Shown: positions 38,392 to 64,000 of the stretch, piece after piece
How positions within the stretch are numbered: the stretch's first letter is position 1
How the letters are laid out: each line of letters opens with the position of its first letter
Assembly (NCBI GenBank): GCA_934591815.1
Contig: CAKTPV010000001.1
Location: forward strand, 1-64,000
DNA from: an uncultured Oscillospiraceae bacterium
Lineage (GTDB): Bacteria > Bacillota > Clostridia > Oscillospirales > Oscillospiraceae
Direction: 5' to 3'
Length of the DNA: 64,000 nucleotides
The notes under the pieces: model-generated
What the model was told of the DNA's origin: nothing
Seen by the model: only the letters and a program-made list of their open reading frames with translations
The model's database searches: none
Translations under genes and position numbers: made by a program

Positions 38392-38467
38392 CCGGGATTA
38401 GCGCAGTTGGTAGCGCGGGTGGTTTGGGACCATCAGGCCGGGAGTTCGAGTCTCCCATCTCGGACCA
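38392..38467 (+). tRNA. tRNA-Pro (anticodon TGG), intact, inside the island
   Basis: 76 nt with acceptor CCGGGAT/ATCTCGG, D arm GCGC/GCGC, anticodon stem GGTGG/CCATC with loop TTTGGGA, T arm GGGAG-TTCGAGT-CTCCC, discriminator A and encoded CCA. It lies 154 bp inside the left end of the island and could replace the host gene split by integration. Confidence 0.95.
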
Positions 38468-42192: not shown

Positions 42193-43770
42193 CTATTTTC
42201 TCCCCAGCATTGCCGCTACCACCCCATAATGTTTCTTCACCGTATTTCTTGCAAGCCCGGTTCGTTTGGCAAGGGTCGAGAACTCTGTGACCTCCGGGTG
42301 GAGGCGCATATAGTCCCACAGCTTGCGCTGTTTCTTGGTCAACTTTTCCGGCGGGGCGATGCCCGCAAGTTGCTCCTTGAGATTTTTGCGCTCCTCGTTC
42401 ATCTCCGTGATCAGCGCCTTGAGCTTTTCCTCGCACTCCTTGCGGGTATGGGCGTAGACGTTGCGGGAATGTTGCGTCCCGTCCGGCCATATAGGAGAAT
42501 AGCGTCCCTCAAACAGGTGGTCATTGAGTTCGCTGACGCAGCCGGTGCCTGGTTTCCTTTTCTTCCCCACATAGGGCTGGAAGTCCACGATGCCTTTCTG
42601 CTCCAGCTCCGCTTCTTCCTGCGGCTCTGCCTTGCCGATGCTCCGGTCGATGCTGGCGGCGGCTGCACGCTGCATATCGCCGGTGATGTGGGTGTAGATA
42701 TCCAGCGTTGTCACCGCCGACACATGGCCCAGCATGGCGGAGAGGGTCTTTACGTCCATGCCGTTCTCCAGTGCCAGCGTCGCGAAGGTGTGCCGCAGAT
42801 CATGAAATCTGACACGCTTGCAGTCTGCCCGCTCCAGTATCGTCTGAAGCCGTCTGCGCGCCACGCCGGGCGTGATCGGTCGGTCCGCCTTCACCGGGGA
42901 CGGAAACATCCAGCGGGAATCCACCTTCTTGCGATATTCCCGCAACACGGCCAGCACCGCAGGTGGCAGCACCAGCTTTCGGACAGATGCCTTGGTTTTG
43001 GGCGGGATGATCTGCAATTCGCCGTTTACCGTGTACGCCTGCTTGTTGACGGTCAGCACGCCGGTTTCAAAGTTCAGATCCTCCCATTGAAGCGCTATCA
43101 ATTCACCCCGCCGCAGGCCGGTGCAGAGATCCAGCAGGAACAGCTCGTAGTACCCGTCCGCCTGCGCCTGAATGAGAAATTTCTGCAATTCCTCCCGATC
43201 CAGCACCTGCATTTCCTTTGCTTTTTTCGGCGGTAGCTTGCAGCCGATGGCCGGGTTTGTATGGAGCAGGTCATCCCGCACGGCCCGTTCCAAGGCGGAG
43301 CGGCAGACCGCGTGGCACATCCGCACCATGCGGTCGGAAAGGCCCGCGCCGTATTGCTCCGTCAGACGCTTGCGGCCGTTCTTTTTCAGCCGCCCGTAGA
43401 ACTGCTGCAAATCATTCTGCGACAATTTGTTCAGCGGGATCTTCCCGATCTCCGGCAGGACATGGTTGTAAATGACGTTTTCGTAGTTGTTCTGTGTGGA
43501 GGCGCGGAGCGTCGGCTTGCTGTGGTTTTCGTACCAGTAGCACAGCCAGTCCCCGAACAGCATATCCGACTTAACTTTTCGGTCATTTCGCCCCACCATG
43601 CTTTCGGTGAGCTGCCGTAGCTTCTCCTGACATTCCCGCTTTGTTTTGGCGAGAACATTCTTCGTTTTGGGAAGGCCGCTGTCATCATAGCCGATGACAA
43701 CGCGGCCCTCCCACCGGCCGTCGCCGCGCTGTCTTACGGTGCCGGTTCCGCTTTTCCGTTTCTTTGCCAA
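42193..43770 (-). CDS. tyrosine recombinase with C-terminal extension
   Basis: 525 residues from TTG 43770, 8 bp after AAGGAG. Upstream in-frame sequence overlaps the other recombinase in a different frame and is rejected. An N-terminal arm-binding domain (TGTVRQRGDGRWEGR) and SAM-like core-binding domain precede the catalytic domain with Arg (CTGLRRGE), HDLRHTFA, GH (MLGHVS) and Tyr (LDIYTHI). Beyond the normal end there are about 130 extra residues: a second arm-like stretch (NVYAHTRKECEEKLKALI) and a helix-turn-helix-like tail (STLAKRTGLARNTVKKHY). Its start overlaps the paired recombinase by 37 bp. Confidence 0.88.
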   Translation of the reverse strand: MAKKRKSGTGTVRQRGDGRWEGRVVIGYDDSGLPKTKNVLAKTKRECQEKLRQLTESMVGRNDRKVKSDMLFGDWLCYWYENHSKPTLRASTQNNYENVIYNHVLPEIGKIPLNKLSQNDLQQFYGRLKKNGRKRLTEQYGAGLSDRMVRMCHAVCRSALERAVRDDLLHTNPAIGCKLPPKKAKEMQVLDREELQKFLIQAQADGYYELFLLDLCTGLRRGELIALQWEDLNFETGVLTVNKQAYTVNGELQIIPPKTKASVRKLVLPPAVLAVLREYRKKVDSRWMFPSPVKADRPITPGVARRRLQTILERADCKRVRFHDLRHTFATLALENGMDVKTLSAMLGHVSAVTTLDIYTHITGDMQRAAAASIDRSIGKAEPQEEAELEQKGIVDFQPYVGKKRKPGTGCVSELNDHLFEGRYSPIWPDGTQHSRNVYAHTRKECEEKLKALITEMNEERKNLKEQLAGIAPPEKLTKKQRKLWDYMRLHPEVTEFSTLAKRTGLARNTVKKHYGVVAAMLGRK

Positions 43771-44936
43771 GGTCTCAACTCCTTCCCGAAGATTTCCTCC
43801 ATGAAGCCTCCAACGATGCCGCTGGCGGCTTTTTGCATATCCGGTGTGACGTGGGTGTAGGTGTCCAGCGTGAAGCTGGCGTTGGTATGCCCCAGAATCC
43901 CCGACAGGGTTTTGGCGTCCACGCCGCTGGCGATGGCGTGGGTGGCGAAGGTATGCCGCAAATCGTGGAAGCGGATGTCCGGCAGTCCTGCCTTGTGCAA
44001 AATCGCTTTCATGTGCGTGTAGGCGCAGTTCGGAGACAGCGGCAGCTCCGGTCGGACAGGGTCTGGGAAGATCCATTGTGTGATTGCATTCTCTTTTCGG
44101 CGGCGCAAAATTTCCGCCGTGCTGCGGGGCAGGACGATGGTGCGCTCACCGCTGCGGGTCTTGGTCTTGCCCAGCATATCGACCCCCAGCTTTCGGTTAT
44201 GAAGGGTGCGGCGCACTTGCAGGACGCCGTTCCGCGCGTCAAAGTCCTGCCACATGAGTCCGCAGATCTCGCCCCGCCGCAGGCCCGTGGTCAGCTCCAC
44301 GTAGAAGAAGTCACCCCATATCTTGTCTTCCCGCACGGCGTCCAGAAATGTGTCCAGTTCTTTGTCGGTCAGGACACGTTTCGGCGCATGGCTTGCCTTT
44401 GGCACCGTTGCGCCCACAGTGGGATTCTTGGCGATGATATGCGCGTGGAAGGCATCCTCCATCGCCTGATGGAAGATGGCGTGGAGGCGGTTGATGGTGG
44501 TATCCGACAGGGCGGAACCAAACCCCGGATGCTCCCTGACCCGGCCGTTCTCTTTCAGCTTGCGGTAGAGCTTCTGCACATCCTGCGATGTCACCAGCGA
44601 CACCTGCTTGCCTCCGAGCTGCGGCTTGATATAGTTTTCGATGCAGCTTCGATACCCCGCAAGGGTGCCGGGGCGGACGGTGTTCTCCTTATAGTCCGTC
44701 AGCCAGCGGTCCAGCCACTCCCCCAAGGTCATCCGGCTGTCCTCGGTCAGCTCCACGTCCTGATAGCGTTCGATATTCTGATGGAGCTTTTCCGTCAGCT
44801 CCTTTTGTGTATGAGCATAGGCATGCTGAAAGATGGGTGTACCGTTTTTCTTGTGGCCCACCACGATGCGGCCCTCCCAGCGGCCATCCTCCCGCTTGCG
44901 CACCATGCCGTCACCGGACGGTCTTCGTTTTGCCAT
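43734..44936 (-). CDS. tyrosine recombinase (integrase) of the island
   Basis: 400 residues. It has an arm-binding domain (GDGMVRKREDGRWEGRIVVG), a core-binding domain and the catalytic residues Arg (TTGLRRGEICGL), HDLRHTFATHA, GH (ILGHTN) and Tyr (LDTYTHV). The ATG at 44936 follows AGGAGGTG. It is the most likely integrase for the tRNA-Pro anticodon-loop site, alone or with the overlapping second recombinase. It is about 30% similar to its partner by eye, so the pair probably arose by old duplication. Confidence 0.9.
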   Translation of the reverse strand: MAKRRPSGDGMVRKREDGRWEGRIVVGHKKNGTPIFQHAYAHTQKELTEKLHQNIERYQDVELTEDSRMTLGEWLDRWLTDYKENTVRPGTLAGYRSCIENYIKPQLGGKQVSLVTSQDVQKLYRKLKENGRVREHPGFGSALSDTTINRLHAIFHQAMEDAFHAHIIAKNPTVGATVPKASHAPKRVLTDKELDTFLDAVREDKIWGDFFYVELTTGLRRGEICGLMWQDFDARNGVLQVRRTLHNRKLGVDMLGKTKTRSGERTIVLPRSTAEILRRRKENAITQWIFPDPVRPELPLSPNCAYTHMKAILHKAGLPDIRFHDLRHTFATHAIASGVDAKTLSGILGHTNASFTLDTYTHVTPDMQKAASGIVGGFMEEIFGKELRPWQRNGKAEPAP

Positions 44937-51109: not shown

Positions 51110-51366
51110 TATCTATCGCTTCCCTATTTGTGTATTATTTTTAGCATACTACAAAACAGATTTGATAGCAATTTATGTATTCCAAATTACACTACTTTAC
51201 TCACAATTGACTGGCGAATATCAGTCAAGAAAGATATCTTTCAAAGCCGCTCTATAAAATGCTGGATTTTTGGGTAGAAAACTTATATAATAAAAATTAA
51301 TATTGACAATTTTCTCATTTCAAGTTAAATTACCACAATCCTTTTGTATTGGAGAGATTATATATT

Positions 51367-52482
51367 ATGGCAAACAAAAAAATAAAAATTTTTTCATTTT
51401 TTTCAGGCTGTGGTTTTTTGGATCTTGGCTTTGAGAAAAACGGCTATGAAATTGTGCTTGTCAATGAATTCTTTAAACCTTTTCTTGACGCATATAAGTA
51501 CGCAAGATTGAATATGGGGATTCCTAAGCCAATGTACGGCTACTGGAATACCGACATTAACCGTTTTCTTTCTGATGATAAAAATGTCTTAACCGAGTAT
51601 ATTAAAAATGCAAGAGATGACGGTAGTCTGGTCGGATTTGTCGGTGGCCCTCCGTGTCCCGATTTTTCTGTAGCAGGCAAGAACAGAGGTAAAGAAGGGG
51701 AAAACGGCAAGCTTTCCCGTTCTTATGCCGATTTAATTATTAACGCAAAACCAGACTTCTTTCTATTCGAAAATGTAAAAGGCCTCTGGCGTACTGCACG
51801 ACACCGGGCCTTTTTTGAAGAACTGAAAGCTGATTTTGCAAATGCTGGATATGTACTTGCGAACCGACTAACAAATTCGCTGGAATATGGTGTTCCTCAG
51901 GACCGTGACCGTATTTTGTTAATTGGAATCAAAAGATCTCTACTGCCTAACAGTTGCATTGATGGCAATGAGATTTCAAATTTCCCCTGGGAGAAGCACC
52001 AAAAGTATGTAGCTGATGCAGTAAAAGGTCTTGCTTGGCCTACAATAACCAGCTTTGGGAGTAATGCAGGCTTACCAGCAGGACTGCCAAAAGAACTAAC
52101 TGTTCAATACTGGTTTGATAAGAATGATGTAGAAAACCATCCCAATAGCAACAATTACTTTACTCCTCGTAAGGGACTTGACCGGATGCAGACAATTGCT
52201 GAAGGTGACGTAAGCAGAAAATCATTTAAGCGCCTACACCGTTGGCGCTATTCTCCAACTGTTGCATATGGGAATAACGAAGTCCATTTGCACCCAACAA
52301 AAGCGAGACGCTTGTCTGCAGCAGAAGCACTTTCTTTGCAATCGCTTCCTAAAGAATTTATTTTGCCACCGGATATGAGCTTGTCACATATGTTTAAAAC
52401 TGTGGGAAACGGTGTTCCATATCTTTTATCTGCTGGGATTGCAACTACATTACGCGAATATCTTCAAGAATTTGTTCTATAA
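51367..52482 (+). CDS. DNA (cytosine-5) methyltransferase of a type II restriction-modification system
   Basis: 371 residues from ATG 51367 (GGAGAG upstream; an in-frame TTG at 51349 is the ribosome site itself). Motif I is FSFFSGCGFLDLGFEKNGY, motif IV GGPPCPDFS with catalytic Cys 97, motif VI FENVKGLW, and motif VIII QDRDRILLIG. It has motif IX/X residues near the end (LQSLPKEFILP, then VGNGVPYLL). PCP instead of PCQ is a known variant. It is strongly AT-rich. It converges on the endonuclease gene 56 bp away; methylation of that enzyme's site is the obvious role. Confidence 0.92.
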   Translation: MANKKIKIFSFFSGCGFLDLGFEKNGYEIVLVNEFFKPFLDAYKYARLNMGIPKPMYGYWNTDINRFLSDDKNVLTEYIKNARDDGSLVGFVGGPPCPDFSVAGKNRGKEGENGKLSRSYADLIINAKPDFFLFENVKGLWRTARHRAFFEELKADFANAGYVLANRLTNSLEYGVPQDRDRILLIGIKRSLLPNSCIDGNEISNFPWEKHQKYVADAVKGLAWPTITSFGSNAGLPAGLPKELTVQYWFDKNDVENHPNSNNYFTPRKGLDRMQTIAEGDVSRKSFKRLHRWRYSPTVAYGNNEVHLHPTKARRLSAAEALSLQSLPKEFILPPDMSLSHMFKTVGNGVPYLLSAGIATTLREYLQEFVL

Positions 52483-52537
52483 ACGCAAAATGGTCACCTC
52501 TGCATCTATACATCTATATGTAGAAGTGACCATTTTC

Positions 52538-53515
52538 TCAAGTACAAATCAATTTAATCTTCTCAGTTACCTGCGAAGGTGTTTCACAATCGTATAGAGC
52601 ATCAATCGCACGTGTAGCCCCAACTGCCTCATTGAATAGACTTGCAAACATGATTAAGCCGTCCAGTGCTTCATGATCCGCAGGTTTAGACGATTCTAAG
52701 GAAAAAGCATAGTATTTATTCATCATGAGCTTTCCGACCTTAAGATCACTTTCTTTGCTAAATGCGGTTGCGTATAAACCTTTTGTGCTGTTTCCCTCAA
52801 CAATAAACTGATATCTGCGGTCAGAGCGTGTTGATGCTTTAATTGAGATAAAAGCAATAATTTCTTCTAACTTATGCACTTTTCCGACATATTTTGAGAA
52901 CAAGCTATCAATCTCGTTCTGTGTATCAAGTGAAATATTGCCGATTTTGGAATATGGTGACAAATTTCCAGAGTAGCTATCTCTGGGCAAACGAAGAATC
53001 ATTGCGTCAGGATTACTTGCCTCCAGCTTTGAGTTCTCACCTACAAACAAGTCAGTCTTTTTTCGTTCAATACGCTCTATATGCACTTCATCTAATATAC
53101 TTGTCCATGATTCCGAAATTCGTTCTTCATGGTTTGGTGCATCAGCGACAGTGCTATTGGGAAGCTTTATATAAATGTAAGGATCAATATCAGGATTAGC
53201 TTGATTAATTTCTGCGAGAGCATTCCATGCATAAATAGCAAATATGTATTCCAGCCAGCGTCCATTACAATTGTTGAATGAGCCAGCAGTTGGTGCGATC
53301 AATTTCTTATGTGTGCCAGGTATTTTCTTTTTAGAAAAAAAGGCTTTTGTATTTTTCTGGAGGAACTTCTTTAATTCCGGAAAGGTAATTTGATCTGAAG
53401 GCAAGCTGGTTTCATAAACACAGCCGATTACTTCCTTGCTTGGAACCATGGCTTTCCACTTTTTATCTGGTCCTTGTTTGGGCTTGATTGCATCTAAAAC
53501 GATTTTGGAATTCAT
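52538..53515 (-). CDS. type II restriction endonuclease, Cfr10I/Bse634I/NgoMIV-like
   Basis: 325 residues. NPDAMIL (Asp 170), SIKASTRSDRRYQ (Lys 226) and Glu 240 give PD-x55-K-x13-E, the permuted active site of the Cfr10I/Bse634I/NgoMIV family, in which the final Glu follows Lys by about 13 residues. STRSDRR after the Lys matches the DNA-recognition stretch of those enzymes, which read CCGG-centred sites (RCCGGY, GCCGGC). NNCNGRWLEYIFAIYAWNAL at about 81-100 is a second typical block. Target CCGG is therefore a prediction. It converges on the C5 methyltransferase. Confidence 0.75.
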   Translation of the reverse strand: MNSKIVLDAIKPKQGPDKKWKAMVPSKEVIGCVYETSLPSDQITFPELKKFLQKNTKAFFSKKKIPGTHKKLIAPTAGSFNNCNGRWLEYIFAIYAWNALAEINQANPDIDPYIYIKLPNSTVADAPNHEERISESWTSILDEVHIERIERKKTDLFVGENSKLEASNPDAMILRLPRDSYSGNLSPYSKIGNISLDTQNEIDSLFSKYVGKVHKLEEIIAFISIKASTRSDRRYQFIVEGNSTKGLYATAFSKESDLKVGKLMMNKYYAFSLESSKPADHEALDGLIMFASLFNEAVGATRAIDALYDCETPSQVTEKIKLICT

Positions 53516-53634
53516 ATACTTTTCCTCCCAAGTTTTCTATTCATTTTAACACACAGTAAGAATGACGTCAAATTAGGCGGAAAAATTATAGATTCTTGCC
53601 GCAATTCGTGATACAATATAGTTGAGGTGAGAAT

Positions 53635-54708
53635 ATGCAGAAAGTGACTGGGTACAATTTGGTGTCAGCAATCAACCAGCTGCCGAAGAACCGCGATTAT
53701 AACTATATTAATCCTAAAACTAAAGGCCTGATTCGTATTGTCCAGGTCGAACTTCCTGCAGGTCCCATTGTCATCAAACGGTGCAACCCCGATAAAGGCG
53801 AAAACTTTTCTGACGCAAAAGAGGTTTCAATCTCTACAGAAATGATTTGGCGCGTAGCAAATGCATTTTATGAGGGGCAGCCAATCAATGTTGACCGAAT
53901 TTTGGGAGCAAGCTATAACACCCGTTCTGTATTGGAAAGTCTAATTGCATATACTCCCCAATTCTCTTATTGCTACCCTGGCCGTATTGCAGATATTGCA
54001 GGTCAGACCACTATTGAAAAAGGACATAAACATCTGGTATGGCTTCCTGATGAGCCTCATAAGGCAGGAGAGTTTTCAGAACTCAAAATTGATGTGGCAA
54101 TCTCTGAGATTCCTACATCAGCTGTAGTTTATGATAGTCTCGATGTGCCGGATACATTAGATTTCCACGGGATGGATATTGAAGTTGCCCGCCGACATGT
54201 CCAAATCCAGATTGCACTTTACCTAATTGGAAAGCAGTTTGGATATGAAACATGGATTGCCCAAAATGATAAGGGAATTAAGTACCAAGGAAAAGCATTA
54301 CTTGAACACGAAGGTATTCTGAAGTCCATTTCGGAGAAACCGCTTATTGGTCCATATTCTGGCGCCTCAAATGCAGGTAGGTTTATTGATTGCATTTGGT
54401 TCGTCGGCGACTTGGATATTCCTGCTGTAATGGAGGTGGAGCACACCACGGGCGTGACAAGTGGATTGGACCGCATGAAAAATTTCCGCGACCACATACC
54501 GCCTATCGGTTCCCGTTACGTAATTGTCGCCCCCGATGAGGACCGGGATCATGTATTAGCAGAAGGCCGCAAACCCATGTTTAAAGATATGGATGTTCGC
54601 TTTTTCCCCTATTCGTCCGTTGAGGAGCTGTATATTCTGTGTCAACGGCGTCATCTTAAAGGTATTACAAAAGAATTCCTTGACTGCTACATGGAACAGG
54701 TGAATTAA
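53635..54708 (+). CDS. putative PD-(D/E)xK-like nuclease next to Vsr
   Basis: 357 residues; not recognised with certainty. The C-terminal part has RFIDCIWFVGDLDIP and AVMEVEHTTG, then RYVIVAPDEDR. Acidic residues spaced as D-x14-ExE with flanking strands resemble endonuclease cores in which Glu replaces Lys (BamHI-like). The N-terminal 200 residues are beta-rich and unassigned. It is 3 bp from the vsr gene and close to the methyltransferase/endonuclease pair, so it is probably a restriction or repair nuclease of the same locus. AGGTGAG precedes the ATG. Confidence 0.5.
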   Translation: MQKVTGYNLVSAINQLPKNRDYNYINPKTKGLIRIVQVELPAGPIVIKRCNPDKGENFSDAKEVSISTEMIWRVANAFYEGQPINVDRILGASYNTRSVLESLIAYTPQFSYCYPGRIADIAGQTTIEKGHKHLVWLPDEPHKAGEFSELKIDVAISEIPTSAVVYDSLDVPDTLDFHGMDIEVARRHVQIQIALYLIGKQFGYETWIAQNDKGIKYQGKALLEHEGILKSISEKPLIGPYSGASNAGRFIDCIWFVGDLDIPAVMEVEHTTGVTSGLDRMKNFRDHIPPIGSRYVIVAPDEDRDHVLAEGRKPMFKDMDVRFFPYSSVEELYILCQRRHLKGITKEFLDCYMEQVN

Positions 54709-54710
54709 GT

Positions 54711-55133
54711 ATGTCAGACACAGTATCACAAGAACGGCGTAGTGAAATAATGTCACATATTAAGGGCAAAAACACATCTATAGAACTACTCGTGAGAAAA
54801 CAGCTCTTTGCATTAGGTTATCGATACCGTATAAACTACACGAAGCTTCCAGGTAAACCTGACATCGTATTCACGAAAAAGAAAGTTGTTATTTTTATTC
54901 ACGGCTGTTTTTGGCACGGTCACGATATTGGATGCCGCTATTCACATGTTCCCCAATCGCGTGCAGAATATTGGAATGAAAAGATTATCCGTACCAAAAA
55001 ACGGGATGCAATCCATCTTAACGAGCTTACTGATAACGGGTGGCATGTTTTTACGGTTTGGGAATGCGAAATTCGCAAGGATTTACGAAGTGTCATTGAG
55101 CAGATTGTAGATTTTCTAAAATCCTATGAATAA
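54711..55133 (+). CDS. vsr: very short patch repair endonuclease
   Basis: 140 residues. It has the Vsr signature ERRSEIMSHIKGKNTSIE, the active-site block GKPDIVFTKKKVVIFIHGCF with Asp and the WHGHD His/Asp cluster. It nicks T:G mismatches made by deamination of 5-methylcytosine. That fits the C5 methyltransferase nearby. It follows the nuclease-like gene by 2 bp. Confidence 0.93.
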   Translation: MSDTVSQERRSEIMSHIKGKNTSIELLVRKQLFALGYRYRINYTKLPGKPDIVFTKKKVVIFIHGCFWHGHDIGCRYSHVPQSRAEYWNEKIIRTKKRDAIHLNELTDNGWHVFTVWECEIRKDLRSVIEQIVDFLKSYE

Positions 55134-55259
55134 AGGTATCAGTTCTAATAAGGAGTATAGTTATTGACCTGTCTATAGTACTGCCATTATTAATTCCATA
55201 TCTCTATAGAAAGTGTCTGTATATGCTCATTGAATAATTATCCTAACACAGTTCAAGGA

Positions 55260-55300
55260 GTAGGCGCCACCTCAAGAATAGAGGTGGCGCCTACTTTGTA
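55260..55300. terminator. bidirectional terminator between vsr and the PIWI gene
   Basis: A perfect 14-bp stem GTAGGCGCCACCTC/GAGGTGGCGCCTAC between convergent units. Confidence 0.8.
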
Positions 55301-55308
55301 CTATCTAT

Positions 55309-57783
55309 TTATACTTTGAAAAGGTACTCTTCAAGACCTTTTGCCAGATGGAGCGGTAAAGGCAAAACCGTCGACTGATTGTACTGAATCGGAAGAGCTC
55401 TCAATGCATTGGTATAGAAGATCCAGCCTGCTGCATCATCCCCCGGTTGAAGCTGCAATGGGTACAATTCAATCATGTCCTTTTCGGCAAATGGATGCCC
55501 AGGGCAATTGATCTTAGATTCTCTAAAACTCCGTGTGTAACGATCATCATTTGGTCTCAAATGGATTCCCCAATACACATCTTCATATTTAAAAATACCC
55601 GATGCAGAAGAACGCTGCAAATTTTCGTCAGTAGCTTTTGCGCTCAACTCCGTGAAATAATCCGGAACTTCTTGATTACTTCTGATTCGGACGATCCGCA
55701 CGCCTGAATCTGCTAATGAGAGTAAATATGGACTTTGTGGTGTTCCGACATTGATCTGGGATGGGCAATACTTATCTACCATGGCATATCCACCAATCTC
55801 CTTGTCGGAGATACCGCCCCATACCGCTCGTGTATTTCCATCGGATTGAACCAAAACCAACACGCCGTTTTCCGGCGTATTGTACCGGTTTTTCAGCTCT
55901 ATGAGTTTTTTCTTCGCAGGGGTGCGGCTTGCAGCAACACAGCGCTGTTCCAAATCGCTTTTCCAGAAAAGCTGCGCCATCTCGAGACACGCTTCCCGAT
56001 AAGAGACCGTCCGCTTTGAGAATGCGTCACAATGTATTTGCACCCTTCCCTCCATCAAATCAACCGTAATGTAAAGCGGAAGAAAACGCGCTTTATTGGA
56101 AATTCCCTGAACTTGCGTACACAAATGCATCCCCACACAAGGCGTATGCGCCAAATCGGGCTGGTCTCGTTCAGGATCCAGCAGGGTTACAACACCTAAC
56201 TGTCGATAGAGATCGTACACAGCATTTTCAATTTTGTTCTGGCTGGCATCCTCCTCAGGAGTAACAAACTGTACAACTCGTCCCGTTTTGGCAAACGCAT
56301 TGCGAAGGACAGATTTCGGATCGCCGACAACATAGTTCTCTTGCCCGGGCAAAACGAAAATACAAGCCGTCACCCCATCGGTATCGCCTAATAGCCCGGC
56401 GATTTCGCCGCATCGTGTAATCTGCGTTTGCAGCTTATCGTCCGGCATGCTATCTGCAAGATCGCCGACTTCTTTACACACATACTGCACTTTCAAACCG
56501 GATATATCCTTTTCATCGCCAAAATCCTGTTTAATTTTGGTCTCAATCTGTTTCAGCAGTCTTTGCTGTGAAGCATCCTTCCACAGGCCATACAGCTCGA
56601 ATGTGATTTGGTCTGTCTCCGTGCATCGGCTGACCCAGTTCCGGAAATCTTCAGAATCCTCATATTCCTGCGGAGAGTTATATTTTTTGAGTTTCTGTCC
56701 TCGCAGCATGACCCGTTCCGCTTCGGGCTGCTCACAAATCATATCACCGAGCAGAGCAGACACTGACTGGTACAGTGACGCCTTGTCAACAACGGACACA
56801 CCAACTCCAATTTTGGAAGCTACAAAACCGGCCATGCCGTTTTTGTAGGGAAGGAGGATTTTTTTCGTGTATGCCGCGGGATTTTTTACAACAGCTTCCG
56901 CCGACGGTAATTGTGCATATCCCCAAATATTGTAGCACTCCTTGTCCTGTTCTTTCCATACGGGCTGTTTGGCCGTGTAACCATAGACAATGGGCACTTG
57001 ACAATACTTATCCTCTGAAATCTTAATATGAGCATTGACCGCATTCGTTAAAAACGGGGGCCGCTCTTTATTGCGGTTATCGGGGATCCAGCGGCGAATG
57101 CTCATCTGGCACAGCAGCAGCGCTTTTCTCCCCGGAGGAGTTGTCTGTACAGATAGATCAAATACAAAAGAGTATTGATGATGACTTTTCATATCCGTGA
57201 TCGGATCGCTGACCAGCTGATTCTTGGCGGCATAGCACAGGTGCAGCGTTTGCCCGCTCAGGGTAATCTCTTTTCCCAACAAACGGTTGATCGCCAGAAG
57301 CGGAATCGCCTGATAAGCGGCTTCGCAAACCGTTCCGTTCTCAAGCGTAAGACAGACTTCGCCCGTGGAGCGAACCGCCGCAAGTTCTTCCCAATTCATC
57401 GTATCGCAAAATTCTTTTGCGAGTTTTTTTGCTATGGGGTTTACTCTTGAAGACGTGACATATGTGGCTTTTACCCAGGTCATAATAATGCCGCACAATG
57501 CCCGCAAATTCTCCTCGGAGTATTCATAGCAGGACGTAAGCCAACGCTCATCATGGCTGTCCTTTTTTAGCGGAGCTAAAGCGATGATACCTTCCATCCA
57601 ACTGTCGACCAGCTTCTTCAGCGCATTCGTTGGAAGTCCATACTCATCCTTAAACTTCGGGTTCGTCTTCCGTGCAATGTTTAGCAGGGCCGCTTTCCAG
57701 AATGCGGGAAACCCCAAATAATACAGGGTGCAGGTTTGTTTGGGAGACAGTTTATATGCCAGCGGATAGATTTTATGATTCAT
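55309..57783 (-). CDS. pPIWI-RE family PIWI (RNase H-fold) protein
   Basis: 824 residues from ATG 57783; an upstream in-frame extension lacks a ribosome site. The C-terminal PIWI-like RNase H domain has PLYITVD (Asp about 575), VQSDGNTR (Asp about 648) and the family-defining Arg...Glu block RIVRIRSNQEVPDYF (Arg 699/701, Glu 705). A MID-like region precedes it, and the N-terminal half is helical and beta mixed without motifs. These features match the pPIWI-RE family (Burroughs et al. 2013), prokaryotic Argonaute relatives predicted to bind guide or R-loop nucleic acid. It overlaps the helicase by 11 bp. Confidence 0.85.
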   Translation of the reverse strand: MNHKIYPLAYKLSPKQTCTLYYLGFPAFWKAALLNIARKTNPKFKDEYGLPTNALKKLVDSWMEGIIALAPLKKDSHDERWLTSCYEYSEENLRALCGIIMTWVKATYVTSSRVNPIAKKLAKEFCDTMNWEELAAVRSTGEVCLTLENGTVCEAAYQAIPLLAINRLLGKEITLSGQTLHLCYAAKNQLVSDPITDMKSHHQYSFVFDLSVQTTPPGRKALLLCQMSIRRWIPDNRNKERPPFLTNAVNAHIKISEDKYCQVPIVYGYTAKQPVWKEQDKECYNIWGYAQLPSAEAVVKNPAAYTKKILLPYKNGMAGFVASKIGVGVSVVDKASLYQSVSALLGDMICEQPEAERVMLRGQKLKKYNSPQEYEDSEDFRNWVSRCTETDQITFELYGLWKDASQQRLLKQIETKIKQDFGDEKDISGLKVQYVCKEVGDLADSMPDDKLQTQITRCGEIAGLLGDTDGVTACIFVLPGQENYVVGDPKSVLRNAFAKTGRVVQFVTPEEDASQNKIENAVYDLYRQLGVVTLLDPERDQPDLAHTPCVGMHLCTQVQGISNKARFLPLYITVDLMEGRVQIHCDAFSKRTVSYREACLEMAQLFWKSDLEQRCVAASRTPAKKKLIELKNRYNTPENGVLVLVQSDGNTRAVWGGISDKEIGGYAMVDKYCPSQINVGTPQSPYLLSLADSGVRIVRIRSNQEVPDYFTELSAKATDENLQRSSASGIFKYEDVYWGIHLRPNDDRYTRSFRESKINCPGHPFAEKDMIELYPLQLQPGDDAAGWIFYTNALRALPIQYNQSTVLPLPLHLAKGLEEYLFKV

Positions 57784-60700
57784 ACGGAATGTCCTTTCGA
57801 TAAGCTTTATAAAATGGAGCATACAGCGTTTCGGCAATTTCCGCACTGTCTTTGCAGGTCATCAATGCATCTAAGTACCTGCCCAACTCGGAGAGACAGT
57901 CAAAGTCACCTTGCTTTTCTTCGCGGCCGCGAAATGCTCCGTCAATAAAATAAACATGCGGTTCCGGCTTTGTCACATCCGTTACACGCGCCAACCGGCC
58001 AAAAATCTGAAGGATCAAAACAAACAGTGTTGCAACCACATCTTTCCGCTCTTCGGCATCCAGCTCAGCCAAACCAAACGATTTGCTTTTGCTCATCTTG
58101 GCCCACTGCTGTGCCGCAAATTGCCGGATGCGCACATTGTATGCGAACAGAGATTCCTGTGGCCCTCGATGACAGTGGGATTCCACAAATCCATTGAGCT
58201 TGCTGCCCTTCTGCTGGATATCGTCAGGAACAGCCATCGGCCGCACCATGAAAAACACCGCGCAAAGGGCAGAGTGGCCGTACTCATCGACAATGTTGTG
58301 TCCGCGTTCGATCGCCATAGCGGGCGCAATCAGGATCTCCTCTTTCATCCCGGCAAACCGGCTGACCTCCCCCCGGCGCACCGTTCCCTGAACATTCTCG
58401 CTGCTGACGGCATCAGAGATCATCCGGCAAACCTGTGCAGGGCAATTGACCTTCCGCAGGGCCGTTTCCAGTGTTCGCTGTACTTTCTGTGCCTGAACAT
58501 AGCTGTTGACGACCAACAGGATCTTCCCGGTTTTTCTTTCATATTCTCTGACGATCAGATCGACTGTCTTTTCGGTTGCAGACCGCAGCTGCAGCATGCG
58601 TTGATCATCTGACGCGCCGGAAATACGCTCCGGAAACCCGGATTCAAAGAAACGCGTTTTTTCTAAAAATGCGCGTTTCTCACCATCCGCCTCCAAGATA
58701 TAGTTCACCGGCCGATTTACGTGGTACTCATATGAACCCTCCGCCCAGCTGGAACCGGACAGCATAATCACATGGGGGCCCGCAGGATTGCCCTGTGCGT
58801 CAGTGCGCAAATACGGAAGATCCTTCATCAAACTTCGTCCGAATGCAAACTGACGGAACAGAATAATATCCTCGTCATCTGTCTTTTTCAGGCCAAACAG
58901 GTTGCCGCACAGCGCGGAGGGCAGGAAATACTGCTGCTGCCGAAAACGGGTTTGCAGGAATCCAAACAGTTCATTTTGTCCGTAAGAGGTTTCGTGGCTG
59001 GCCTCATACGCATCGCTGAGGTCTCGGATAAAGTGATCAAAATAAATGAGCCGCAAAATAAGCTTGATGCGGGCATCTTGGATTTGTTTCACTTTATCCT
59101 TCTCAGGCCGCGGAAAATCATCGCCCAGCTCATTCAGCCAAGCGCGGTACATTTGGTGAAAGAACGTCTCGTCGGTACTCTTACAGGAGCTCTCAAGGAC
59201 GGCCCATAGCGTACTCTGGCGAATGTCATCGTCATCCTGCATATCGATCAAGTCATAGATGGCTTGATAGACGGCATACGGAATTCTATATTCCGACTCA
59301 TCCCGGTACATATCCTCTAAGAGGGTAAGGGCTGAAAAAGGATCTCCATGCGCAATTCTCTTCCATGTACCCAATTCATGGTGCAGAGATTTTACGAGAC
59401 AGCTCAGGACTGTCACGCTCTGGCGCTGCATTTCATCGTATCTCTGCTCGGCCAGATTCTCCTCTCTGCGTTTGCTGCTCAGCCGCATATAGGCGCTGCA
59501 ATCTTCGGCACATTCGCGGATATAGCTATTAAAGCTCGTTTCCGGCATAAAAAAGTGATCAAGCGTTTTTTGAACCCTGTCGCTTTCATCAAAGACGACC
59601 ACATCAAAGCCGCGCATTACCAACTCCAGAAAGGTTTCCCGCTGCGCTCCTACCCGAGATGCCGCAAAGCCCGCAACTGTTGTGATAACAACGGAAGCGG
59701 TATAGCATTCACGGAGCATTCTGGTGCCCATGCACTGATGAAAATACGGACACAGGTAATTCTTGTTCCCTTTTTTCAGGGCGTAGCACGGCTCTTTGCC
59801 GAAAGCGACCGCTTCGCTGTGCTGCGCATCCATTCCATCAACCAAACATAACGGCGTTAAGTATTGGGAAAATCCTGCCGGCAAGCAAGTCTCACAGGGC
59901 TGCGCGATCTGATTGATATATTTCAGCCTTTCACCGCGGCCAATCAACGGGCTTGCTGCAACCCCAAAGGCCGATAAATATTTCTGCAGGTTCATGACTT
60001 CGGCTACCGTGTCAACAACGATCGTCATTCGGTACCCATTTTTATGACACCAAAATGCCAACACCTTGATCAGTGTGGATTTGCCCGCGCCAACCATGCC
60101 AATGATATTGATGACCTCAAGGATCGTGAGCTCCGTACATGTACTGACGGAAGCTCCTTTGACCTGCTTGAGAACATTGGTCGATAAAATCGCATAGCAC
60201 GGGTCACCGGGATACATCCCGGCCATTTCCTTTGCGGTGCTCAGCAGTTCATCCAGAGTGACGGAAATTGGTTCTCTGCGTCCCTTTTCAGGAATTCCCG
60301 GCGGAACGGGTGCGGTACAGTCATTGTCAAATCTGACCGAAACAGTTTCGGTTTCCCCGGTTTCCAGATTCAGATACGGATAGCGATATGTTCCGGCTCC
60401 GGCATAAGAAGGCGGCTTGGCTTCTTCAAGCTCTTCCGGCCAAAACCGCTCCCACTCCCTTTGGCGCCGCTCATACGGATAGGGATATTCCCCCTCCGAT
60501 TTGGAAAACGAACGACTTTCCCCCGATTTCTCAAACGAAAAAGCGCGAACCGCATCATATTTCGGAGCCTGATATGCCTGCAAATCATCCTGCCAGTATT
60601 TTTGAGAACGATAGTACCCCAATGTGTGCCGGGCCTGCTGCAAGGTGTGTTCCATAGCCGTACACGCCGTTGTGCCAATAAGCTGATATTGGGTAAATAA

Positions 60701-60856
60701 CAGATAGGCCTTTGCCGGATCGGCGGCCGGTGCATTCAGGGCAAGCAAATGCAGAACCGCTTCGATCGCCGCAAATCTGGCAAGCGGCATGGGTTCGTCT
60801 ATGCCTTGAAATTGTGCCGCAAGCGGAGTGTACCAGCCGTCTTTGGTCTTATTCAT
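57773..60856 (-). CDS. pPIWI-RE system DinG/XPD-like helicase
   Basis: 1027 residues from ATG 60856 (GGAGGCGG upstream). Walker A is GMVGAGKST (253-261), Walker B VVVFDESD (419-426), and motif VI-like FGRLARV lies at about 951-957. Between A and B are six Cys (321, 324, 337, 357, 369, 375), a probable XPD/DinG-type iron-sulfur cluster. An about 230-residue N-terminal region matches the pPIWI_RE_Z-type module by position only. It would unwind DNA or R-loops for the PIWI and REase partners. It overlaps both neighbours, 8 bp upstream and 11 bp downstream. Confidence 0.83.
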   Translation of the reverse strand: MNKTKDGWYTPLAAQFQGIDEPMPLARFAAIEAVLHLLALNAPAADPAKAYLLFTQYQLIGTTACTAMEHTLQQARHTLGYYRSQKYWQDDLQAYQAPKYDAVRAFSFEKSGESRSFSKSEGEYPYPYERRQREWERFWPEELEEAKPPSYAGAGTYRYPYLNLETGETETVSVRFDNDCTAPVPPGIPEKGRREPISVTLDELLSTAKEMAGMYPGDPCYAILSTNVLKQVKGASVSTCTELTILEVINIIGMVGAGKSTLIKVLAFWCHKNGYRMTIVVDTVAEVMNLQKYLSAFGVAASPLIGRGERLKYINQIAQPCETCLPAGFSQYLTPLCLVDGMDAQHSEAVAFGKEPCYALKKGNKNYLCPYFHQCMGTRMLRECYTASVVITTVAGFAASRVGAQRETFLELVMRGFDVVVFDESDRVQKTLDHFFMPETSFNSYIRECAEDCSAYMRLSSKRREENLAEQRYDEMQRQSVTVLSCLVKSLHHELGTWKRIAHGDPFSALTLLEDMYRDESEYRIPYAVYQAIYDLIDMQDDDDIRQSTLWAVLESSCKSTDETFFHQMYRAWLNELGDDFPRPEKDKVKQIQDARIKLILRLIYFDHFIRDLSDAYEASHETSYGQNELFGFLQTRFRQQQYFLPSALCGNLFGLKKTDDEDIILFRQFAFGRSLMKDLPYLRTDAQGNPAGPHVIMLSGSSWAEGSYEYHVNRPVNYILEADGEKRAFLEKTRFFESGFPERISGASDDQRMLQLRSATEKTVDLIVREYERKTGKILLVVNSYVQAQKVQRTLETALRKVNCPAQVCRMISDAVSSENVQGTVRRGEVSRFAGMKEEILIAPAMAIERGHNIVDEYGHSALCAVFFMVRPMAVPDDIQQKGSKLNGFVESHCHRGPQESLFAYNVRIRQFAAQQWAKMSKSKSFGLAELDAEERKDVVATLFVLILQIFGRLARVTDVTKPEPHVYFIDGAFRGREEKQGDFDCLSELGRYLDALMTCKDSAEIAETLYAPFYKAYRKDIPYES

Positions 60857-61973
60857 CGTTGCATGCCGCCTCCTTCTTCGCAATTGCGGTTTTCAGCGTC
60901 TTCAGAGTCACACACTCTACATTTTTTTGATCCTTCAGTACGCGGTTGATGATCGCGGTATAGTTTCGCTGATTGACTGTGTATTCGCTGGGGATCACAA
61001 AATAGCCGCGCGCATAGTCCCCGGAAGGGAACCCACCGTCATTCTGAATCTTCGTGCGGAGCGCGATGGGATTTCGATATGCCTTTGCGTCAATTTCCCA
61101 AACATCCCCGTCCGGGAACCGGATCTCCACATCATAGCGGTCCATCTGCGGCCACAATGCCCAGCGAAGCTTCTTTTTCTCACAAAACGCCGCAATTTCA
61201 AGTTCAAGCTTTCCCGGCGCAGCAAAATACCGCATAACGCCTTTCTTTAACCGATAGAGATCGCCGGCCGAACTATCCAGCTTCATCTCATCTGTGAGTT
61301 CGGGGAGGGTATCTGTGCAATGCGTCGAATGACAGCTGTATCCGTATTTTCCTTGCATCATCGTCCATCCGCACCGAGGACAGTGGTAGCATTCCTCCGT
61401 AATTTCCTCGTAGGCAAACTGGAAGGCGTCTCTGGCCATCGGATCATCGGCCAGCTCAAGAGACATAGCGCGCCTGTCCTCAAGCGTGATAATCGGATGC
61501 TCGATGATATATCTTCTGACCCTGCAGTAATCTTCTTGACTTAACGTAATTATTTTTTCATAGAGAATACGCTCGTCTGTTCCGTTCATGATGTCACTGT
61601 CCTGCGTTTCCAGGAACTCATAGCAATCCGAGCTGGGAACATATACGTTACCGGCTTTTTGATACGCAAAGGCGTCATAGGCATAAAAAGGCTCTTCCTG
61701 AAGATGCAATTGCTCGACAGCTCCCGATTCCCATGTATCGAACCATTCCTCAACAGGTCTGGTGATAAAATGTGCAAGGAAAGAGACCTCGTCGGGATAC
61801 TCGACAGCGGCTTGGCTCCCCGCCCATTGACTTGCGGCTAAAAACATATTGATTCCATGCTGCATAGCTTTGCTGTAGGGATACCTTGTCGGTTCCGTCT
61901 GCAGAAGCTGTTCTTTCTCAATCAATCCTTTTGCGATCAGCGCAAATGTTTTTCGCATAAATGCCGTATCCAC
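60849..61973 (-). CDS. pPIWI-RE system REase-fold nuclease with zinc ribbon
   Basis: 374 residues starting at GTG 61973 (AGGAGGG 6 bp upstream; a later ATG lacks a site). A zinc ribbon (CPRCGW, Cys 198/201, and CHSTHC, Cys 214/219) is followed by the restriction-fold core LELEIAAFCEKKKL, RYDVEIRF (Asp 281) and VWEIDAKAY (Asp 295, Lys 297). This matches the REase partner of pPIWI-RE modules. It is the first gene of the operon after a consensus promoter and a hairpin leader. All three pPIWI-RE genes look intact. Confidence 0.83.
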   Translation of the reverse strand: MDTAFMRKTFALIAKGLIEKEQLLQTEPTRYPYSKAMQHGINMFLAASQWAGSQAAVEYPDEVSFLAHFITRPVEEWFDTWESGAVEQLHLQEEPFYAYDAFAYQKAGNVYVPSSDCYEFLETQDSDIMNGTDERILYEKIITLSQEDYCRVRRYIIEHPIITLEDRRAMSLELADDPMARDAFQFAYEEITEECYHCPRCGWTMMQGKYGYSCHSTHCTDTLPELTDEMKLDSSAGDLYRLKKGVMRYFAAPGKLELEIAAFCEKKKLRWALWPQMDRYDVEIRFPDGDVWEIDAKAYRNPIALRTKIQNDGGFPSGDYARGYFVIPSEYTVNQRNYTAIINRVLKDQKNVECVTLKTLKTAIAKKEAACNDE

Positions 61974-62003
61974 GGAAATCCCTCCTGTCTTGAAGCAAAA
62001 TAA

Positions 62004-62036
62004 AACGGCTCTCTTGATATGTACAAGAGAACCGTT
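62004..62036 (-). promoter_or_regulatory. leader hairpin/operator of the pPIWI-RE operon
   Basis: AACGG and TCTCTTG pair with CAAGAGA and CCGTT, interrupted by one mismatch, around loop ATATGTA. It lies 31-63 nt before the GTG start, downstream of the promoter. It may be an operator dyad or an RNA hairpin. Confidence 0.6.
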
Positions 62037-62127
62037 GAAAATACAATATGACCGGAATATATAAATCGTGAAACAAAATCTATATACCGAATCGATGCGC
62101 TTTTAACTTTTCTCGTGTACAAATACA

Positions 62128-62156
62128 ATTATATGAATTGCCTTACGGCTTGTCAA
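62128..62156 (-). promoter_or_regulatory. perfect consensus promoter of the pPIWI-RE operon
   Basis: TTGACA (62156-62151), a 17-bp spacer and TATAAT (62133-62128) on the minus strand. The leader would be about 145 nt. The region 62160-62319 holds nothing else I can support. Confidence 0.85.
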
Positions 62157-62319
62157 GAAGCATTTTCACTTTCTTCGTATATTGTGGCTGATGAGCATTT
62201 CAGACAGGACTGGTGATGAAGGCACAACAAAGTTCATAGCACAGGCTATTCATACTTACTTCGGAAATTGATTTTTCTTTGTTTATGGCGCTACTGTACA
62301 CGGTCTTTCAAGACGCCCA

Positions 62320-62358
62320 AAAAGACCGCCCCTGCTCATACGAACAGGGGCGGTCTTC
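62320..62358 (-). terminator. terminator of the fic gene
   Basis: AAGACCGCCCCTG/CAGGGGCGGTCTT, a perfect 13-bp stem, between fic and the pPIWI-RE promoter. Confidence 0.8.
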
Positions 62359-62385
62359 TAAATTGTTGCTTTTATTGGAGGATAT

Positions 62386-63432
62386 CTAATTCAGTCTGAA
62401 ATAGCAGGTATTCTTCCCGCGACCTTCTTTTTTCAATTCTCCGGCGGCAACCAGCTTGCGCAAGGCCCCCTCAATGGAACTGTCGCTGAGCGTCGGGCAA
62501 AGTTCCCGGATGTCCTGCTTATTGAATCGCCCGATTCTATTCTTGCTTGCTCTGCGCACCATTTCCAGTGCGGGCAGCTTGGTTTCCACAAGCACCACGC
62601 GATCCTCAAAGTCCTTATAGGCCGCAAGGATCGTTCCGAGCAGGTACTTGATGAAAGGCACTACATCCTCGGTGCCTTCGTGCCAGCCGGTTTGCGCCTG
62701 TGCAAGCGCATCGTAGTACAGATCCTTGTTTTTGGCGATTTTGGCTTCAAGGGAGATATACTTGCCGACATAAAAGCCGTTTCGGTACAGAAGCAGCGTC
62801 GTGAGCAAGCGGCTCATTCTTCCGTTTCCGTCATTGAAGGGGTGGATGCACAGAAAGTCATGGATGAACACCGGAATCGTAATCAACGGCTCCAGTTCCA
62901 TATTCCCGATTACGCGGTTGTATTCCTCGCAGATTCTGTCCAGTGCTTCCGGCGTTTCATAAGGGGCAAGCGGTGTGAACAGCGTTTCCACATGACCGTC
63001 CGGATAGGTGGCAGTGATATAGTTCTGCGTAGCTTTGGTGCGGCCCGCAAGCGGGTTATTCATGTGGCTGTACAGGATTTTATGAAGCTGCAGGATATAG
63101 TTCTGCGTAATTGGAATCGCGTCAAAGCTCTCGTGAATGATACTCAGCACATCGCGGTATCCGGCAATTTCCTGCTCGTCACGGTTTCTCGGCGTGGTTT
63201 TCTCCTCGACGAGCTGCCGGATTCGGGTACTCGTGGTGACGATGCCCTCGATGGCATTCGATGCCTCGGTGCTCTGTATCTTGGCAATCTCCACGAGCTT
63301 TTCGAGCTCCTCCGGGCGCTGCTTCAAATACAGCTCCTGCTTGCCGGCTTCCTTGTATATGGCCGCAATCAGGCCAAGAACATCCGAGTCCCATTTTTGT
63401 TCCTTAATTGCGGAGTAATTGAAGGTTCTCAT
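62386..63432 (-). CDS. Fic-domain protein (probable AMP transferase)
   Basis: 348 residues. The Fic motif HPFNDGNGRMSR is complete (197-208). An inhibitory helix of the SxxxEG type is encoded upstream (SNAIEG, residues 58-63), so this is a class II, self-inhibited Fic enzyme. The C-terminal about 80 residues form a winged-helix domain (RRASKNRIGRFNKQDIRELC). It would transfer AMP from ATP to a protein Thr/Tyr/Ser. No antitoxin gene is adjacent. It lies between the pPIWI-RE operon and the right end of the island. Confidence 0.92.
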   Translation of the reverse strand: MRTFNYSAIKEQKWDSDVLGLIAAIYKEAGKQELYLKQRPEELEKLVEIAKIQSTEASNAIEGIVTTSTRIRQLVEEKTTPRNRDEQEIAGYRDVLSIIHESFDAIPITQNYILQLHKILYSHMNNPLAGRTKATQNYITATYPDGHVETLFTPLAPYETPEALDRICEEYNRVIGNMELEPLITIPVFIHDFLCIHPFNDGNGRMSRLLTTLLLYRNGFYVGKYISLEAKIAKNKDLYYDALAQAQTGWHEGTEDVVPFIKYLLGTILAAYKDFEDRVVLVETKLPALEMVRRASKNRIGRFNKQDIRELCPTLSDSSIEGALRKLVAAGELKKEGRGKNTCYFRLN

Positions 63433-63715
63433 TCCCTCACCTCTCTTTGTTTTCCCTTAAATGATATCGAAAAATAAGAGAATAGTCAATAGGCTGTGCC
63501 ATAAATCCCTTACTATTATGTCCGTATTAAGGGATTTATACCCAGGGAGCAAGAAAGGTACCTCTGCCTATCTACCTGCCTATTCTTTGTCTATAGCGAT
63601 GCAATTTCTGCGCCTCTTATCCTTGCACAAAGGACTTGCTTAACCTTTCCAGCAGAGGTAAAATACAGCAAACTGAAGTGTCGATTCACTCGTCTGTAGC
63701 ACTTTGGCAAACCAT

Positions 63716-63765
63716 AAAAACCGCTTTCTATCCCCTGTCGCGAGGGTGTTCAGAAAGCGGTTTTT
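63716..63765 (+). terminator. hairpin near the right end of the island
   Basis: AAAAACCGCTTTCT/AGAAAGCGGTTTTT with inner CCCCT/AGGG. The 3' arm runs into GACCACATGTTTGACTACA (63766-63784), which matches 38346-38364 near the left end with one mismatch. 63433-63715 holds no supported gene. Confidence 0.6.
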
Positions 63766-63896
63766 GACCACATGTTTGACTACAGACAGCCGTGGAGTGT
63801 GCGGAAACAGTGGAGCCAAGAGTTGCGAAGAGCACCTGTAATAAACTAAAATTGGCTATAAAGCGGCTAAAAAAGTAGAAAAATTCTTATTCAAAA

Positions 63897-63942
63897 GTTT
63901 GGGACCAGGAGACCGTGCGTTCGAGCCGCACTACTCGGACCA
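63897..63942 (+). pseudogene. orphan tRNA-Pro 3' half (attR)
   Basis: Core GTTTGGGA, anticodon 3' strand CCAGG, variable AGACC, T arm GTGCG-TTCGAGC-CGCAC, acceptor 3' strand TACTCGG, A and CCA. It completes the 5' half at 38201-38238. A terminator hairpin CCCCTCTGAAATC/GATTTCAGAGGGG follows at 63946-63977. Confidence 0.85.
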
Positions 63943-64000
63943 AAACCCCTCTGAAATCGTTGATTTCAGAGGGGTTTTCTTATTCTTTGTCTATTGCGGC

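Follow-up and report, generated by a model that had tools for sequence, protein, structure and literature searches.

An intact pPIWI-RE operon downstream of a consensus promoter

A 64,000-nucleotide stretch of DNA from an uncultured Oscillospiraceae bacterium (assembly GCA_934591815.1, contig CAKTPV010000001.1; referred to here as the window) was found to carry a three-gene pPIWI-RE operon and, between its promoter and first gene, what appears to be a conserved structured leader RNA. The operon comprised three open frames on the minus strand: gene 1 (60849..61973; 374 amino acids, GTG start) encoded the pPIWI-RE REase, gene 2 (57773..60856; 1027 amino acids counted from the ATG) a DinG-like helicase with a Z domain, and gene 3 (55309..57783; 824 amino acids counted from the ATG) the pPIWI-RE protein, with X, MID and RNase H/PIWI domains. 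The genes overlapped at 60849-60856 (8 bp) and 57773-57783 (11 bp). An inverted repeat 3' of gene 3 (55259..55295, strand not assigned), recognised from the sequence and from the module edge seen by blastn, was the probable operon terminator. On the same strand as the genes, a consensus sigma-70/A promoter (TTGACA-17-TATAAT) occupied 62128..62156, reading from 62156 to 62128, with 12/12 matches.

The leader RNA (62001..62122, minus strand) was predicted to be about 120 nucleotides (nt) long, running from a +1 at 62120 to the end of a terminator. It was matched by a covariance model, R1, at E 1.8e-18, a value that is not independent since the window's leader was itself a training sequence. Its predicted 5' end carried the motif GUACACGAGAAAAGU (62106..62120, minus strand; columns 3-17 of alignment A5), followed by a variable internal hairpin (62050..62093, minus strand; limits from a single-sequence fold) and, before gene 1, an intrinsic terminator hairpin (62004..62036, minus strand; identified from sequence, folds and alignment), the 5' arm of which could also pair with the 5' end of the transcript in a helix termed P1. 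This terminator-like hairpin, at 62036-62004 between the promoter and gene 1, was absent from the initial annotation.

The initial annotation, a reading of the DNA sequence alone, had named the operon a three-gene pPIWI-RE system, and this identity was borne out: in a Pfam profile search all three proteins exceeded the cut-offs of families built for pPIWI-RE, and in PADLOC they matched the models PprPIWI, PprDinG and PprRE. None of the three matched an NCBIfam model over its cut-off. The gene order, the 8 and 11 bp overlaps and the open frames were as that annotation had located them, and its perfect consensus promoter was confirmed. The system was defined by Burroughs, Iyer and Aravind in 2013, who proposed R-loop-directed restriction (PMC3702460); this paper and the others cited were available in part, and statements about them refer to those parts. 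The window's operon resembled the published system in its three protein families and the domain order inside them, in its strict REase-DinG-PIWI gene order with overlapping termini, and in its Cys-rich DinG-type helicase. The operon is an ordinary and intact example of this rare, known system, and its name was correct. Its supposed rarity was in keeping with the 4/394, 4/295, 2/300 and 2/398 sampled genomes that were positive, each of the four samples including its own positive centre genome.

The PIWI protein and its active site

The gene 3 product matched the Pfam families X (132.1 bits, cut-off 30.5), MID (51.4 bits, cut-off 26.6) and RNaseH (79.8 bits, cut-off 25), and PprPIWI of PADLOC at 279 bits. 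At E 0.1 its only Pfam matches were to pPIWI_RE families, none being to the classical Piwi or PAZ families. The predicted model, as judged by structure modelling and a fold search, carried a PIWI/Argonaute fold. Neither of the outcomes that the initial annotation had set against its own claim, placement of the protein outside the PIWI families and a model lacking the PIWI fold, was observed. The predicted fold is common to the classical long prokaryotic Argonautes, which differ in sharing 14% identity with the window's protein and in lacking its fixed REase and DinG partners. Identity to relatives ranged from 65 to 97% among the 120 proteins listed, and from 65 to 91% in the loci; these relatives belong to the Clostridia, and the names or isolate records of several point to a gut origin. 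A second homologue search, started from a distant PIWI protein, gave 2 proteins.

D575 and D648 probably form the catalytic pair, because in the model of the PIWI part they lie at the end of strand 1 and just after strand 4, respectively, a strand placement made without superposition. E597/E601 and H812 were the further active-site candidates, H812 being a probable catalytic residue. In alignment A1, D575 was Asp in 18/25 sequences and Asn in 7/25, D648 was Asn in 1/25 and H812 was constant in all 25; the window's copy kept both aspartates. In PsPIWI-RE of Pseudomonas stutzeri, replacing either Asp by alanine eliminated cleavage; the R and E were dispensable (PMC10991935). Since cleavage by PsPIWI-RE needs both aspartates and D575 is replaced by Asn in 7/25 sequences, some natural members of the clade are probably binders, not cutters.

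The initial annotation had described a PIWI/RNase H-fold protein carrying the RIRSNQEVPDYF block. The conserved R and E of the family were both present, R696, R699, R701 and E772 being invariant in 46/46 sequences. The family's glutamate is probably E772 and not the one in RIRSNQEVPDYF, to judge from the alignment, because E772, and not E705, stayed invariant after two distant members were added. The corresponding pair of PsPIWI-RE, R639 and E718, is 79 residues apart (PMC10991935); which of the arginines is the family's one, and E772 as its E, were assigned from spacing.

PsPIWI-RE is like the window's protein in its catalytic Asp pair, in a gene that overlaps an upstream dinG and in a clustered nuclease gene; it differs in that its account, as available, is without a leader (PMC10991935), and in that the first Asp is variable in the window's clade. 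It was described in the same paper as an RNA-guided DNA nuclease and a DNA-guided RNA nuclease. The statement in the initial annotation that function is inference is thus only partly true by now, since this relative has been biochemically characterised.

The REase and the helicase

The gene 1 product matched pPIWI_RE_REase of Pfam at 79.2 bits (cut-off 26.1) and pPIWI_RE_Y at 27.3 bits, barely above the cut-off of 26.7, as well as PprRE. A REase with a Y domain and zinc ribbon as the first gene is a trait of pPIWI-RE systems, as is a DinG-type second gene with a Z domain and Cys-rich region, and both were present here. The zinc ribbon was C198/C201/C214/C219 and the PD-(D/E)xK-like residues were D281..D295-x-K297; these key residues were invariant in 10/10 clade members and the motifs were retained in 4 distant members. 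The structure model of the REase was weak (pLDDT 65.0, pTM 0.43). A sequence search of solved structures with alignment A3 returned two weak matches (E 0.64 and 0.66) that were not credible. At the relative's locus L028 (position 8595, genome G183), the start-codon position of the REase gene was ACG, not ATG/GTG.

The helicase matched pPIWI_RE_Z at 50.1 bits (cut-off 25) and PprDinG at 325 bits. It carried a Walker A motif (GMVGAGKST), a DESD motif and cysteines at 337/357/369/375, the latter conserved in 15/15 aligned helicases. The zinc ribbon, Walker A/B motifs, four Fe-S-type cysteines and PD-(D/E)xK-type residues were all present and conserved.

A conserved leader at the start of the operon

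The promoter-leader arrangement was present in 12/12 clade operons found via their proteins, namely those of the window, loci L001-L010 and L028 (genome G183, L013/L028), and a thirteenth leader (genome G1361, locus L037) was found via the leader itself. All 13 had an exact TTGACA, a spacer of 17-18 and a -10 box that fitted the consensus at five or all six positions. Because the G of GUACAC lay 6-8 nt after the -10 box in 13/13 (at position 7 in nine, 8 in three and 6 in one), GUACACGAGAAAAGU begins at the predicted transcription start. In this motif 13/15 columns were identical in 11/11 leaders; the remaining two varied in one leader, by a change and by a gap. Leader length ranged from 105 to 130 nt over the 13 and was 121 nt in the window. 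The terminator ended 24-32 nt before the start codon in 12/13 cases and 58 nt before it in L005, and the hairpin was followed by at least four T in 11/11 aligned leaders. At the level of sequence, then, an intrinsic terminator lies between the promoter and the first gene, as expected of an attenuator. Searches for a start with a Shine-Dalgarno-like site and at least seven codons found no leader peptide in the 11/11 leaders tested.

The leader is conserved, operon-specific within its clade and undescribed by the searches made. Rfam gave 18 matches up to E 10 in 61800-62400, all below the gathering score; L003 and L037 were the other loci scanned, and nothing there exceeded that score. No description of the leader was found in the pPIWI-RE or attenuation/defence literature, as far as listings and available text covered it. 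In the main text of PMC3702460 the words terminator, leader and attenuat- were absent; here, a leader was conserved in a clade of gut Clostridia. PMC7641849 was rejected as a pPIWI-RE source, the match being only to 'Piwi-related'. CAP-domain protein genes lay immediately upstream of the leader in L003 (3342-4472) and L037 (7414-8643).

The model R1 was built from ten leaders, the decayed L010 being left out. Run with stricter filters on 394 genomes belonging to the order, it gave four matches, in the same four genomes that had the REase family in a same-sized draw; each of the four leaders either belonged to the training set or equalled one of its members, so the result speaks for specificity, not sensitivity. 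Each of the 11/11 operon-bearing genomes had a single significant R1 copy (E <0.05), at the operon, with all others at E >=0.07; 10/11 of these genomes had supplied the training set, that of L010 being the one that had not. Outside this training set it found L010 and the new G1361, in which the leader lay directly 5' of an operon encoding proteins 74-83% identical. Genus samples gave R1 matches in 1/4, 1/25, 4/41, 2/60 and 1/9 genomes, corresponding to eight known carriers and G1361. The leader thus goes with the operon, but in one clade only. Neither phages nor plasmids were found to carry it, and its pattern was not found in viral contigs; in a search for relatives on viral contigs 29 stretches fitted a pattern, none of them encoding a relative, and the PIWI protein had no match in phage records. 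Scans of the upstream regions of distant loci showed terminator-like hairpins in L025 and L026 and none in L027 and L029; the upstream sequences of L031 and L032 were printed only, and that of L030 was covered by the R1 search alone. In L030 (4394-14844), from the Bradyrhizobium plasmid pS15H, the gene 3' of the helicase was annotated as a single, very long coding sequence that has an RNaseH domain (record 243023-252325); a divergent WYL-domain gene lay 24 bases from gene 1.

Structure of the leader

The window's leader RNA folded better than 198/200 shuffles (z -3.08). Structure counts were made on alignment A5, which held 11 distinct leaders, that of L001 being identical to the window's and dropped before pairs were counted. 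In the terminator stem 5/13 pairs had two-sided changes, seen in 11 cells altogether; 96.5% of cells were paired, and 0/500 shuffles reached the covariation score.

In P1, the pairing of the 5' end with the 5' arm and loop of the terminator, 92.6% of cells were paired, compared with 28-64% when the strands were slid. In transcripts cut before the 3' arm the probability of P1 was 0.99-1.00 in 11/11 leaders; with the 3' arm included it fell to 0.00-0.01 and the terminator took over (probability 0.87-1.00). For the five terminator pairs within the P1 core, the 5' arm was changed in 0/55 cells and the 3' arm in 6/55; when two edge pairs were added these values became 5/77 and 10/77. This asymmetry is suggestive only, because of the kinship among the leaders and because the choice of the core followed inspection of the data.

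The internal hairpin had a mean z of -1.83 in 10 leaders (range -0.28 to -3.65) and was weak in L006 (-0.28), L009 (-0.82) and the window (-1.11). In the interior, a region that does not align, RNAalifold retained 4 pairs, each showing 1-4 breaks or gaps. In L010 (304-3220) the operon had decayed into fragments, with a stop in the REase gene; its leader had lost P1, had an interior z of -0.07 and gave 68.6 bits with R1, the lowest score of the twelve operon loci searched.

Two other explanations of the leader were weighed against these data. The leader might be conserved merely through recent kinship of the operons, the hairpin being a plain terminator of something upstream, and every leader-bearing operon found does belong to one clade. 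Against such an origin, the ends of the leader were nearly invariant while no stretch upstream of the -35 box was conserved across the leader set, most leaders kept a hairpin although the inner region changes strongly, the terminator pairs covaried and the promoter sits upstream of the terminator; we consider this account extremely improbable. Alternatively, the copies of TGTACA-n-GAGAA, one at +1 and one inverted in a terminator arm, could be DNA operators for a repressor, with the terminator incidental. These repeats were conserved and inverted, and the +1 copy was placed where a repressor could sit. However, the hairpin had a T run and a covarying stem, two of the few changes in P1 were G-U wobbles, and the 14 flanking proteins that were scanned (of 40 listed) included no recurring regulator family, a single locus (L028) having an upstream MerR/TipA-type gene. 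Operators of this kind therefore seem improbable.

A putative attenuator-like control of the operon

In the reading that we favour, with a probability of about 0.6, the window holds an intact pPIWI-RE operon whose transcription would begin with a dedicated attenuator-like RNA element. Transcription from the strong promoter would yield a structured leader of about 120 nt with an intrinsic terminator at its 3' end, immediately 5' of gene 1, and the majority of transcripts would be expected to end at that point. As long as no factor is bound, the terminator would prevail and the operon would be kept low; P1 would serve as the antiterminator, and a factor that favours it, or the loss of a factor that holds the 5' end, would allow RNA polymerase to pass. 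As suggested by the family, the PIWI protein may bind a DNA/RNA hybrid, or an RNA guide on invading DNA, while the helicase would remodel the R-loop and the REase would cut. Most speculatively, the factor could be the pPIWI-RE protein itself, the feedback being lifted once that protein is occupied by invader nucleic acid.

In favour of this reading stand the family membership, the presence of the leader in 13 operons, the specificity of R1, the covarying terminator, the high pairing of P1 and the unchanged 5' arm in its core, the loss of P1 in the decayed L010, the block of promoter, leader and genes shared with L028, and the AbiF/RCd22 precedent described below. Other observations weigh against an attenuator-like element. 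Covariation in P1 was near nil, with one compensatory change (L004) and two wobbles, and P1 was broken at its outermost pair in L037, at pair 12-107 in 1/11 leaders and at pair 13-106 in 7/11. The shuffle control for P1 was not significant (155/500), and shuffled 5' ends equalled the observed pairing in 104/3300 cases, up to 39/300 in one leader. In folds of read-through RNA that extended 12 nt into the gene, the 5' end lay in a proper P1 in 1/13 leaders (L001); a fold of the window's RNA that stopped immediately 5' of the start codon did show P1, so the outcome depends on the cut point. G104, which lies outside P1, was also invariant, and the leaders are related, which means that the changes counted are not independent of one another. 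The training leaders of R1 came from all four genomes matched in the order-wide search and from 10/11 of the operon-bearing genomes, the leader of L001 being identical to the window's. R1 matched 0/7 distant loci with a pPIWI-RE-type helicase (L025-L027, L029-L032); the leader is clade-specific, so the pPIWI-RE family as a whole does not need it. Finally, no phage-defence experiment on any pPIWI-RE was found in the literature searched, as far as its text was available, and no phage test of PsPIWI-RE was found in the available text of PMC10991935.

The closest parallel is AbiF/RCd22 of Clostridioides difficile, in which a SigA promoter is followed by a structured non-coding RNA (ncRNA) with a Rho-independent terminator and then by a defence gene; premature termination limits abiF expression in cis, and the ncRNA binds AbiF in trans (PMC12373285). 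AbiF is an unrelated effector (Abi_2/Cas13-like). By this parallel the terminated RNA of about 120 nt could itself be the product, binding the pPIWI-RE complex in trans as an inhibitor, or as a guide or scaffold anchored in the MID pocket through its 5' end, with P1 closing the RNA body instead of serving as an antiterminator. We regard this as a real but minor possibility. It draws on the shared layout and on the inhibition of AbiF by RCd22 (PMC12373285), on a motif that starts at the predicted +1 and extends past P1 into bases that P1 leaves unexplained, and on the finding that PsPIWI-RE binds and uses RNA guides of at least 10 nt, with no 5'-base preference in cleavage (PMC10991935). It sits less well with the nearly fixed spacing between terminator and start codon, as a cis element would need. 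Nor do the known RNAs of this layout offer a match: RCd22 has two abiF motifs (RF03085), whereas the 18 Rfam matches did not include RF03085, and at the settings used the leader showed neither direct nor tandem repeats of the kind found in type III antitoxins. A fixed, phage-directed guide was rejected, the 15-mer occurring in 25 viral contigs against 36 for one permuted control of equal composition, which is no enrichment.

A further reading, speculative and rather unlikely, would join the attenuator to such binding. The leader would be a dedicated RNA component whose 5'-terminal GUACACGAGAAAAGU is bound by the MID pocket of the PIWI protein; free PIWI protein would hold the 5' end, giving termination, low expression and a quiet protein, and its engagement by invader DNA/RNA hybrids would free the 5' end, so that P1 forms and the operon is switched on. 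If this were true, an Argonaute-like defence protein would have its own encoded sensor RNA.

In the literature examined, what guides pPIWI-RE proteins in cells, and how the possibly self-damaging nuclease-helicase-PIWI set is restrained, are unanswered questions. An operon-specific conserved RNA whose predicted 5' end carries a motif, and which occurs in named cultured gut bacteria, among them Agathobaculum butyriciproducens DSM 100391 and Flintibacter muris DSM 110149, offers an experimental handle on that control. With an attenuator-like leader, the promoter-ncRNA-terminator-gene layout of AbiF/RCd22 and the type III toxin-antitoxins would also be extended to one more effector, an unrelated one.

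The module and its genomic island

The segment 55259-62182 was shared with G183 (L028) at 92% identity by blastn. It covers the genes as well as the leader and promoter, with one end at the inverted repeat past gene 3 and the other a little 5' of the -35 box. The next shared pieces were 63583-63942 on the right (83%) and, on the left, only short integrase pieces. These edges indicate that leader and genes travel together and that the adjoining restriction-modification genes lie outside the unit. In the comparison with Agathobaculum (L001), the island's Fic gene fell within the common block as well.

The description of the surroundings as a defence island held, with McrBC, an m5C methylase, two restriction enzymes and Vsr around the operon, and the island also had two integrase frames and a MobL relaxase. 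Among 10 flanking proteins of relatives scanned with PADLOC, five had matches, to type IV restriction, PDC-S02, PDC-S62, RT-Toprim and a type III methylase. This context bears on a different view of the operon, that it mainly serves replication or DNA repair and not defence against invaders, as has been suggested for the P. stutzeri PIWI-RE: there, a deletion strain showed about 15-fold lower survival after ciprofloxacin, with filamentation (PMC10991935). Such a role seems unlikely for the window's operon, given its patchy presence across sampled genomes, the defence-type matches in the flanks of relatives, and its place in an island at a tRNA gene, alongside genes for restriction, integrases and a relaxase.

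A complete tRNA-Pro (38392-38467) stood at one edge of the island and a 3' tRNA-like remnant (~63897-63945) at the other. The site looks like a tRNA-Pro insertion hot spot, because in L001 the matching flank sequences adjoin, side by side, at an intact tRNA-Pro. A search for island DNA in plasmids gave one 220-base match only. Within the island, 42193-44936 held two overlapping integrase-type frames of 627 and 400 amino acids. The stretch 51349-55133 encoded one m5C methyltransferase, two restriction enzymes (one of Cfr10I/Bse634I type and another of type II) and the Vsr nickase, and had a G+C content of 40%, compared with 49-59% in the neighbouring gene stretches measured.

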